This document shows, piece after piece, positions 12,789-16,456 of a stretch of DNA of 64,000 nucleotides. The notes beneath the pieces were generated by a model. It was not told the DNA's origin, searched no databases, and saw only the letters and a program-made list of their open reading frames with translations. This DNA is from Candidatus Endolissoclinum faulkneri L2 (GTDB taxonomy: Bacteria; Pseudomonadota; Alphaproteobacteria; Thalassobaculales; Thalassobaculaceae): positions 227,015-291,014 of the forward strand of contig NC_019566.1 of NCBI RefSeq assembly GCF_000319385.1, written 5' to 3'. Numbering within the stretch: position 1 is the first letter of the stretch; each line of letters starts with the position of its first letter. Made by a program: the position numbers and the translations under genes.

Positions 12789-14405
12789 TCAACTTATGAA
12801 TCTTCTGCGACTTGTTCTAAATCGCTGGTAATTTCCAATCAACAATAATGATAAAACCATAATAAAGAACGGTATATCGCCAGTTTTGCTAAACATCGGT
12901 TTTGGCAACGCGGCAGGTAGAGGCGTATCAATACTAGCGGTTATCCCCACTGAGATGCTGGTTACAATTCGACCAGCCGCATCGATTACTGCGGAAACGC
13001 CGGTATTAGCTACACGAATCATCGGTAGCCTTTGTTCAATAGTTCGGAGACGGGATATTGCTAAGTGTTGATATGGCCCACTCCAACAACCAAACCAAGC
13101 ATCATTGGTTAAGTTCAGTAGCCATGATGGTCTATGTTTCGGGTCAACTGTCTCACCAGGAAAGATTGCTTCGTAGCAAACTAACAAAGAAACTGGCGGT
13201 GCGCTCCGCAAATTCATGGTTAGTGGGCCGATTCCCGGTGTAAAGTCTAACTTATTTTGTACTATTCGATTGATCGCGAGTTTTCTGCTCAGAGGGATAT
13301 ATTCACCAAAAGGAACGAGATGAGTTTTATCGAAAGTCCAAACAACGTTTGCCTGAGAATCGAGCGCAAAAATTCGATTATATAACTTATACTTATTAGC
13401 TTTTTTGGTGATATAAGGTGCGCCAAAAATTAGGTTACCTTTATGTGGGGTGCTTAGAGAAAGCTCCCTCATCAAATTTGACGTATCATTCATTAAATAA
13501 GCAACTGCTGTTTCCGGCCAGACAACCACGGTAGGCATATAGTCACAAGTTAAACCTAGAGCACGAATATTATCTGTTCTTCTTCTTTTGCTCATTCTTA
13601 GATAGCGTTTTATGTGTTCTGGTTTCAAAAGTGGGTTCCACTTATCGCGTTGAGGTACGTTTCCCTGGACAATTTTAATTACTACACCAGGTACAGCCCC
13701 CTTGGGATCGGTTAATTTGGGAATTGTTGCTATTCGCAATATACCCCAGCCTATTATTAATATGAGCAGCAAGCAGGTAATGCTTGCTGTAAGTATTTTT
13801 TGTTGAGTGGCTGTTGTGCGATCCATCCAAAGCGCAGGCAACATGGTAACCAATAGGACGAGTAAACTTAATCCGTAGCTTCCGATTACGGAAGCAGATT
13901 GTAATAGCGGTAGCCATCCATCAATCGTAGCTGAGGGTAAGTTCCAAGGAAAGCCGGTTAATGCATGGCCACGCAACCATTCGGCACTTGAGTATATAGC
14001 AGATAAACCAATCCAAAGTTTCCAACCATTACTAAAGAAGAGCTTTGCTAAAGCACCTGCAATTGCAGCATATAAAGCCAATATCCCTGGCAGTCCTATG
14101 TTGGCGAACGGTATTAACCAAGCATCATCTTTAGCGTTAATAAGCATTGCATTACTAATCCAGTGCAGACCAGAGGCTTGGTAGCCGAATGCCCACAGCC
14201 AAGCTCTCCAAGCAGCTAAACGCACGCTAGTAGCTTCAGCAACTAACACTAGAATAGCAGCGTGACCAAATGATAAAGGTATTAAATGTAAAGGAGCTAA
14301 TGATAAAGAAGTAATTGCTCCGGAAAACAAAGCAATAACTTCAACAGTCCAACGATATCGTTTGCGGGTATTATTCCTATGTGCTATATGAATGTTTAGT
14401 CTCAT
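12789..14405 (-). CDS. lnt: Apolipoprotein N-acyltransferase Lnt
   Basis: Inner-membrane enzyme that adds the third acyl chain to the N-terminal cysteine of lipoproteins. 538 residues, normal length. The N-terminal third is a set of hydrophobic helices (about residues 21-215); the nitrilase-like periplasmic domain follows. The catalytic triad is complete: E298 in VWPETAV, K360 in FDKTHLVPFGEY, and C410 in LVCYEAIFPG. So the cell still makes triacylated lipoproteins and presumably has an outer membrane. It converges with rlmB across an 86-base gap. Its usual rhizobial neighbours (metK, corC, ybeY) are not here; 800 bases of AT-rich spacer follow. Confidence 0.96.
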   Translation of the reverse strand: MRLNIHIAHRNNTRKRYRWTVEVIALFSGAITSLSLAPLHLIPLSFGHAAILVLVAEATSVRLAAWRAWLWAFGYQASGLHWISNAMLINAKDDAWLIPFANIGLPGILALYAAIAGALAKLFFSNGWKLWIGLSAIYSSAEWLRGHALTGFPWNLPSATIDGWLPLLQSASVIGSYGLSLLVLLVTMLPALWMDRTTATQQKILTASITCLLLILIIGWGILRIATIPKLTDPKGAVPGVVIKIVQGNVPQRDKWNPLLKPEHIKRYLRMSKRRRTDNIRALGLTCDYMPTVVVWPETAVAYLMNDTSNLMRELSLSTPHKGNLIFGAPYITKKANKYKLYNRIFALDSQANVVWTFDKTHLVPFGEYIPLSRKLAINRIVQNKLDFTPGIGPLTMNLRSAPPVSLLVCYEAIFPGETVDPKHRPSWLLNLTNDAWFGCWSGPYQHLAISRLRTIEQRLPMIRVANTGVSAVIDAAGRIVTSISVGITASIDTPLPAALPKPMFSKTGDIPFFIMVLSLLLIGNYQRFRTSRRRFIS

Positions 14406-14613
14406 TATGGATTAAATTATAAAACCCCAACGTGGGAAAAATTATTTGACTTAATTTAACAAGATATTATTTAAAAATTTAAGAATATTTGTAAATTGCA
14501 AAAACTGATTGTTATTAGGATGCAGTTATATCTTAAATTAAGTATTCAGTATTACTCGGGAAAAGTTTACTTATTAAATCACTTTTCAACTGATCACTTT
14601 TACAAGTAGTTTT

Positions 14614-14661
14614 TTCGATATAATGATCTTGAGTATTTTCGATATAATGATCTTGAGTATT
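14614..14661. repeat. 24-bp tandem duplication, two perfect copies (first of a pair)
   Basis: Unit begins TTCGATATAATGATC and ends GAGTATT. Copies at 14614-14637 and 14638-14661 are identical. A second, unrelated unit of the same length is duplicated 35 bases further on. Confidence 0.95.
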
Positions 14662-14696
14662 AATGAAAATATACTATAAAATTTAGTATTTTATAG

Positions 14697-14744
14697 CATT
14701 TTTGTATACATTAGGTAATTCATTTTTGTATACATTAGGTAATT
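14697..14744. repeat. 24-bp tandem duplication, two perfect copies (second of a pair)
   Basis: Unit begins CATTTTTGTATACATT and ends AGGTAATT. Copies at 14697-14720 and 14721-14744 are identical. The unit is unrelated to the one just upstream but has the same 24-base length and copy number. Confidence 0.95.
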
Positions 14745-15203
14745 CATAATTACCGAGCATAAATTAGCTAGTATTTAAATATATTTTAATTAATTCAGGA
14801 AAATTACAAGGCAAAGTTTGCTGAATATTCAGTGAGTTTTTACAGTGCCTAATGTTATAATATCACGATATATTTGTTAGATAACTGTTAATTTTCAACA
14901 ATAGTAAAAACCCCCTCAAGACTTTTGTTATGTTTTTATTATTGTATTTATAAAATTTATATTGTATAATCTTCCTAAGTCAATATATTTTTACAGCTTT
15001 ATTCTGGTTATAAAAACTGCTGATGCGGATTACTTCATAAGATCATTATGCTCTCTCTTTAGACTACAAGCAACAATTTTCGAGATGTTTGGATGGTCAG
15101 GCGTTTGTTATTTTAATTGTGCATTATTTTACCAAAAAAATTAACCAAACCTCTTAGAAATTACATTGGCTTAATTCTATACTAAAAATAGAAGGAAACG
15201 TGA

Positions 15204-15782
15204 ATGTTTATTCAGACAGAAGAAACCCCTAATCCGGCTACTTTAAAGTTTTTACCAGGGCGTACTGTTATGGCGCATGGAACTGCTGAGTTTAGGTCAA
15301 TGGAGGAAGCCACTGGCAGTTCGCCGCTTGCTGTAGCGATTTTAGGAGTTGATGGGGTAACTACAGTTTTTCTTGCTGGAGATTTCATCAGTGTTAGCAA
15401 AAGAGCAGATAAAAAGTGGTATGTTATGAAGCCGGTTTTGCTTGGTGTAATTATGGAGCATTTTGTTACAGACAAGCCGATCATTTCTGAAGAAATCAGT
15501 CAATCAGTCAATGGCCAGATTAAATCTGAAGATCAAAAGATTGTTTCTCATATTAAGGAATTGCTTGATGCCCGAGTGCGTCCTGCTGTTTCGATGGATG
15601 GTGGAGATATAATTTTTCACGGATACGAGAATGGCGTGGTTACTTTGACAATGCATGGTGCCTGTTCTGGCTGCCCGAGCTCGACTGCGACGCTGAAGAT
15701 GGGCATAGAAAATATGCTACGCCACTACATTCCGGAAGTTCGAGAAGTACGAGCTGCTAATGAAGCAATTGATTATTACTAA
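15204..15782 (+). CDS. nfuA: NfuA-type iron-sulfur cluster carrier (Nfu_N + NifU C-terminal domain)
   Basis: Carrier that delivers Fe-S clusters to target enzymes. 192 residues, normal for the alphaproteobacterial and mitochondrial Nfu type. The Nfu N-terminal domain (residues 1-90) opens with MFIQTEETPNPATLKFLPG; the NifU C-terminal domain (about 110-190) carries the cluster-binding CSGCPSS motif after DGGDI. GAAGG lies 8 bases before the ATG. In rhizobia it usually has a universal stress protein or trpS nearby; here it stands alone between two AT-rich spacers. Confidence 0.93.
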   Translation: MFIQTEETPNPATLKFLPGRTVMAHGTAEFRSMEEATGSSPLAVAILGVDGVTTVFLAGDFISVSKRADKKWYVMKPVLLGVIMEHFVTDKPIISEEISQSVNGQIKSEDQKIVSHIKELLDARVRPAVSMDGGDIIFHGYENGVVTLTMHGACSGCPSSTATLKMGIENMLRHYIPEVREVRAANEAIDYY

Positions 15783-16456
15783 TGTGATTAAGGATATTCA
15801 ATAACTACATTTGGATCTATTATTGTAATGAATGAGTAATTTAGAAAAAGAAGTTTTTTTGATATAACCTAATAAATAATTATGTCCATTTATAGGTTAT
15901 TGTATAGCTTTAAACCTAACACAACCTTAAAAATTACTAAATTAGTCCACTAATTCGCAATAAATAGTTAAGTTTTTAATAGTGCCGCAACTATAACATA
16001 AGCTTTTTTCAAATTATGTTTGTTATTTATTTTCAAACTGTCTTTGCATTATATTAATTAAAATTTAATTCATCATCGGATATTTTTATTCAGCTTAATA
16101 ATTATTTATCAAGCTTTTTAAGGAATATTAAACTGTTCATTTTAGTTTATTGTTTATAATTTTAGTTATAGACGGTTTTTTGGTTAGCTTTCTGTAATAT
16201 CGACTTAAAAATTAATTTTGATTTTTCCACATAACTGGCTGTTTAATGTTGTTCATTGCTGGTTGGCTAAAAGTTAGTGAAGTTTGGTTGATCCAATAAC
16301 CAGTATTTGATAAGAAGGTGTACGGTTTAACGTTAATACCTTAGCTTAATACGTTAAGTTTAGTTTGATCAAACTAGCGATTGCGCTATAATTTGGCGTT
16401 GGGCATTTCTTTATAAAAATGAGAAGACTGGTCAATAATAATATCGGAAGTGTTAC
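15783..16456 (+). other. AT-rich spacer between nfuA and tsaB
   Basis: No gene seen on either strand. The 3' end holds the tsaB promoter and a leader of roughly 60 bases; the rest has no recognisable structure. Confidence 0.6.
16365..16392 (+). promoter_or_regulatory. tsaB promoter, TTGATC-16-TATAAT
   Basis: TTGATC (16365-16370) and a perfect TATAAT (16387-16392) are 16 bases apart, the same hexamer and spacing as before rlmB. The tsaB GTG is 65 bases downstream with GGAAG before it. Confidence 0.6.

Follow-up and report, generated by a model that had tools for sequence, protein, structure and literature searches.

Two neighbouring 24-bp tandem duplications upstream of nfuA in Candidatus Endolissoclinum faulkneri L2 and a genome-wide class of short noncoding duplications

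The window analysed here, a stretch of 64,000 nucleotides from the genome-reduced tunicate symbiont Candidatus Endolissoclinum faulkneri L2 (NC_019566.1, positions 227,015 to 291,014), contains lnt, encoding apolipoprotein N-acyltransferase (12789-14405, minus strand), and an nfuA-like gene (15204-15782, plus strand) for an Fe-S protein of 192 aa, whose C-terminal domain matches NfuA/NifU models below their curated cut-offs. Between the two genes lies an AT-rich spacer of ∼800 bp (14406-15203; unstranded, as are the repeats below) with two tandem duplications. Duplication 1 (14612-14661) is TTTTCGATATAATGATCTTGAGTA twice over, in perfect 24-bp copies at 14612-14635 and 14636-14659 followed by 2 extra matching bases (period 24, 2.08 copies, zero mismatches, TRF score 101); immediately to its left, positions 14608-14611 read AGTT against AGTA, a single mismatch. 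Duplication 2 (14697-14747) is CATTTTTGTATACATTAGGTAATT twice over, in perfect 24-bp copies at 14697-14720 and 14721-14744 followed by 3 extra matching bases (period 24, 2.12 copies, zero mismatches, TRF score 102). The gap between them is 35 bp (14662-14696), and the two units are unrelated, with 6 of 24 positions identical. Direct reading, TRF and a repeat finder all agree with the initial annotation that two different 24-base units, each perfectly doubled, lie 35 bp apart. An imperfect hairpin-forming inverted repeat (14667-14703; 16-nt arms, 88% complementary, loop of 5) extends across most of the gap and 7 bases into duplication 2, and an equally strong hairpin occurs in 1.5% of random L2 noncoding 50-mers. 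Scanning the window for Rfam families and tRNAs gave no match at the duplication site.

Both pairs are well beyond chance, since the window holds two perfect duplications of 15-60 bp against none in any of 40 local dinucleotide shuffles, and the highest TRF score over 30 shuffled windows was 86. A third period-24 array at 16006-16055 (TRF score 56) was rejected as support for a 24-bp mechanism because its score lies within the level of the shuffled windows. Searched against the 1,481,191-bp single-contig L2 genome, the 241-bp region gave a single match at E ≤ 0.001 (40 of the 57 first-look candidates scored), and neither 24-bp unit was found elsewhere, with up to 4 mismatches allowed, in the 62% of the L2 genome searched.

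The gene lnt adjoins nfuA in both L2 and its sister strain, L5 (window 12789-15782 in L2, compared with loci L022-L025 and L027-L029), and was not found within the fetched ∼5 kb nfuA flanks of the six larger relatives searched. The L5 lnt/nfuA spacer has no convincing alignment to that of L2 and carries different duplications: perfect ones of 26 and 16 bp, one of 13 bp at 1.9 copies, and imperfect ones of 17 and 20 bp. Downstream of nfuA in L5 (L022, 5616-5715) a 33-bp unit is present in three near-perfect copies (98% matches), and the L5 gene has several distinct tandem duplications in its spacers on either side.

The site belongs to a class of duplications that was followed in 844 kb of L2 (the window counted without overlap, its two pairs included) and 400 kb of L5 (NZ_CP006745.1), with a detection floor of 12 bp (units of 9-11 bp occur as well) and with coding sequence defined as open frames of at least 100 aa instead of by annotation. 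Perfect duplications of at least 15 bp numbered 16 in L2, of which 13 lay in 371,971 bp of noncoding sequence and 3 in coding sequence, and 41 in L5, all within 176,165 bp of noncoding sequence, although coding sequence makes up 56% of the L5 sample (0 of 41 coding, P 2.5e-15). In both strains, short tandem duplications are nearly restricted to noncoding DNA. Their noncoding density is far higher in L5 than in L2 (23 vs 3.5 per 100 kb; rate ratio 6.66, P 5e-11), and regions chosen for other purposes agree, with 20 duplications in 58 kb of L5 and 1 in 36 kb of L2. Four control genomes of the same class (1.2-1.4 Mb, 200 kb sampled from each) gave 0, 0, 0 and 1 noncoding duplications; given noncoding samples of ∼10-39 kb each (87 kb summed), L2 is not separable from these small-genome controls and L5 stands out. 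The one control genome with a noncoding duplication (G238) has 2.5 per 100 kb, resting on one event. A large-genome relative in the same genus (G004) had 12 duplications, all coding.

The search for further 24-bp tandem arrays, which the initial annotation had proposed, returned two noncoding ones in the L5 sample and one coding one in the L2 sample, together with many arrays of other lengths. The coding array (L120, 8073-8145) is an in-frame 24-bp unit in three copies that encodes PMVTSVTE three times within a long open frame, the translation of which resembles a modular polyketide synthase. A second coding stretch of L2 (L189, 9653-9819) holds 2.3 copies of a 72-bp unit and is related to a stretch of L5 (L141, 1387-1672; 81% identity over 286 bp).

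Our results favor the view that the two pairs in the window are probably two neutral and recent mutations of one homology-independent kind that acts throughout the genome, and that no function in relation to nfuA is implied. The strongest competitor is slipped-strand mispairing, in which the nascent strand slips between short flanking repeats, here CAT at pair 2 and an imperfect AGTxTT at pair 1. Insertions are known to arise from small tandem duplications, for which slippage, a local process that needs no RecA, is a frequent explanation; RecA was found in neither strain. The site itself lends this route some support and counts to that extent against our preferred explanation, in that the match exceeds the unit by 2 bases at pair 1 and 3 bases at pair 2, and the imperfect AGT(T/A)TT at both ends of pair 1 fits slippage; the same 2 and 3 bases are also compatible with chance. 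The slipped-strand class expects flanking homology, whereas the class described here shows none beyond chance. With microhomology measured as the number of matching bases beyond the unit length, and with duplicated random noncoding stretches of equal length as the null, two-copy noncoding events of at least 14 bp had a mean of 0.95 against 0.91 in L5 (n = 40) and 0.91 against 0.92 in L2 (n = 11, both window pairs included). Among these 51 events, 12 had at least 2 bases and 25 had none, and the share that could have required at least 2 matching bases is at most about a fifth (95% bound 0.18). No junction motif emerged at 25 exact junctions (lowest P 0.049 among 48 uncorrected position tests), and hairpins showed no association with the duplications over 40 L5 events (P 0.88) or 11 L2 events (P 0.15), so that a hairpin-driven hotspot was rejected. 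Taken together, chance-level microhomology, the missing motif and the missing hairpin association argue against slippage as the main route, and we regard it as a possible but doubtful origin of the window pairs. The initial annotation had named slippage as a mechanism; pre-existing short repeats are not generally needed, and the bases at the site fit either route.

The equal length of the two units raises the further idea of a concerted event, in which a stall at a hairpin beside both sites led to equal 24-bp re-copying on each side. The hairpin at 14667-14703 does span the gap, the lengths are equal, and close pairs in L2 exceed random placement (two vs 0.04 expected; P 0.001, in a test made after seeing the pair). 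Against this, duplications generally do not lie near hairpins, and equal length is not by itself informative. Noncoding unit lengths in L2 and L5 combined run from 12 (the detection floor) to 35, with a median of 20 for units of at least 15 bp, and are alike between the strains (medians 20 and 20, P 0.94). Length 24 is not a mode of this distribution, occurring twice per strain in the noncoding set (the two in L2 being the window pairs) and in the one L2 coding array. The probability that two random events are of the same length is 0.069, or 7% of pairs. Seven adjacent pairs (gap ≤ 100 bp) were found; only the one at the window site is of equal length, the other six being unequal, two of them overlapping, and the probability of at least one match among seven is 39%. 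With broad lengths, a sharing probability of this size and unequal lengths in the other pairs, the equal 24-bp length needs no explanation, and a concerted origin appears unlikely. The proposal that one mechanism produced both pairs stands insofar as both belong to the same mutational kind, a genome-wide class, whereas the fixed loop size of 24 attached to it was rejected on the breadth of the lengths. In L5, pairs within 100 bp numbered 2 vs 0.9 expected (P 0.22), and within 1 kb there were 14 neighbours vs 5.7. Duplication events are thus clustered in places, and perhaps are not fully independent.

The age of the duplications was approached through their divergence. Noncoding pairs of 18-40 bp with 0, 1, 2 and 3 mismatches numbered 30, 4, 8 and 4 in L5 and 10, 3, 0 and 6 in L2, and shuffles gave no pairs below 3 mismatches and ∼0.6 (L5) or 1.6 (L2) at 3 mismatches; the diverged L5 pairs (1-3 mismatches) thus amount to 16 vs ∼0.6 in shuffles. 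The surplus of perfect pairs suggests that most are young, or that they are often lost again, or that in L5 they are partly artefact. For the window pairs, a recent origin, as first proposed, is probable.

Artefactual origin deserves some attention here, as false doubling at contig joins could mimic young duplications and AT-rich spacers may have low read coverage. For the L5 genome, Velvet was run on Illumina reads and contigs were joined (PMC3851785), which bears more on this strain than on the window; with a short-read assembly and PCR joins, some perfect L5 pairs could be artefacts. On the other side, mapping the L2 reads back gave only 34 variants (PMC3851785), a 48-bp duplication fits within a single short read, and diverged pairs and three-copy arrays exist. 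Moreover, false joins could reach the k-mer size of 61-67, whereas the largest noncoding unit in the sample is 35. For the window pairs we therefore consider an assembly artefact very unlikely. Least credible of all is a function for the direct repeats as regulator or promoter sites kept by selection, since, for all their position upstream of nfuA and their words resembling -10 boxes, the promoter-like words remarked on in the initial annotation are no more than chance gives (6 promoter-like sites in 14380-15230 vs 6.9 ± 3.0 in shuffles), 457 bp separate the last repeat from the nfuA start, the L5 spacer is not conserved, and the units are unrelated to each other and do not recur in the 62% of the genome searched.

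The direction of change could be read where the strains align. Unforced alignments covered 14 events (13 from L5 and 1 from L2), and 5 of the 14 were clean, all of them L5 duplications at which L2 has a unit-sized gap within 1 nt and is thus single-copy (L238:14561, L240:1415, L240:1448, L244:97 and L244:352). The other 9 (8 of 13 from L5 and the single L2 event) showed offset, differently sized or no gaps. A collapsed-query test found a single copy in all 13 aligned of 60 L5 events and in the 1 aligned of 12 L2 events; since this test favours single copy by construction, polarity rests on the unforced alignments. Recent pseudogenes were aligned with intact orthologues at the positions given in PMC3851785 (ftsK, amidase, M48 peptidase and HTH in L5, ∼5.3 kb; dnaA and gloB in L2, 3.3 kb), and none of their insertions of at least 5 nt was a tandem copy; non-tandem L2 insertions of 44, 20 and 14 nt sit in flank beyond the listed pseudogene ends. 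At the sampled rate, ∼1.2 duplications would be expected in the L5 pseudogene sequence. This result counts against tandem copying as the dominant kind of insertion, in what is little sequence.

Several genetic causes were considered for the duplications and for the difference between the strains. Families for RecA, MutS, Ku, Y-family polymerase and ATP-dependent ligase were each found in neither strain, and PMC3851785 reports recA and mutSLH as lost. PolA with its 5' nuclease domain, RecJ, AddA and DnaQ were found in both L2 and L5, and loss of any of them was rejected as a cause. Loss of MutS would not be expected to affect 20-base loops, a point against slippage; alone, it fails to separate L2 from L5, and the two of the four controls that gave no MutS match (G065 and G133) had no noncoding duplications, a weak comparison at ∼10 kb of noncoding sequence each. 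A symbiont-specific loss of Ku is not a clean cause, as Ku likewise went undetected in a large-genome relative (G002) and was detected in G004. None of the tested repair and replication genes separates the two strains, which reportedly share almost their whole gene set. Strain-specific losses include ftsK, an amidase, an M48 peptidase and an HTH gene in L5 and dnaA and gloB in L2 (PMC3851785), and those listed give no obvious cause for the 6.7-fold difference. Target duplications of mobile elements are disfavoured, as no sign of mobile elements is reported in PMC3851785.

Two known systems offer comparisons. In Portiera, a symbiont of the whitefly Bemisia tabaci, tandem repeats accumulate in intergenic DNA, and, as far as the accessible text of PMC7821994 goes, the likeness to Endolissoclinum extends to a reduced genome, AT-rich spacers of increased size, repeats lying mainly outside genes and tandem repeat numbers that differ widely from lineage to lineage. 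The Portiera repeats have been linked to dnaQ loss and rearrangement (in the same portion of PMC7821994), whereas dnaQ was detected in L2 as well as L5, and the gene order of these strains has been described as almost fully conserved (PMC3851785). In mammalian cells, small tandem duplications arise from break fill-in involving CST/Pol alpha-primase and Ku and are attributed to the filling of protruding ends followed by end joining; like the class described here, they are short head-to-tail copies with mostly little microhomology (available part of PMC8355091). The two systems differ in that the mammalian process is largely Ku-dependent and its induced overhangs were 43 bp or more, according to the same part of PMC8355091, whereas neither Ku nor ATP-dependent ligase was found in either Endolissoclinum strain and the overhangs proposed here would be ∼20 nt.

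With pairing of pre-existing repeats not needed, we infer the following course for the homology-independent duplications favored above. A random short noncoding stretch, mostly of 15-31 bp, would be copied once, head to tail, when staggered single-strand breaks leave overhangs of ∼20 nt that are filled in and the filled ends are rejoined; an equivalent homology-free re-copying during replication could take the place of this step. Joining would have to fall to the replicative ligase, and weak constraint and drift would let the duplications persist. Broad lengths and junctions with no requirement for microhomology are consistent with fill-in, a pattern rather than a proof, and the retained AddA and RecJ could trim ends, which counts against it. 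A bolder version, in which staggered-break fill-in yields homology-free duplications of ∼20 bp and L5 is a several-fold mutator for this class alone, is offered tentatively, as a conjecture we would sooner doubt than accept.

In conclusion, the site itself is ordinary, and the interesting part is the genome-wide process together with the contrast between the strains. According to PMC3851785 the genome is ∼57% coding and its spacers are AT-rich, with BLASTN giving only 21 matches between those of the two strains; in the main text of that paper the word "tandem" occurs only twice, for Ehrlichia proteins and in a reference title, so that duplications are not described there in such words. If the mutator conjecture were true, new DNA would be fed into decaying spacers, helping to explain a large genome at so low a coding fraction. 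Here a symbiont in which no RecA was detected displays duplications whose junctions give no hint of homology, and a strong contrast between sister strains with reportedly near-identical gene sets. The system is therefore useful for asking how bacteria without homologous recombination and Ku duplicate DNA, and it also bears on whether insertions by duplication offset deletion in genome decay.
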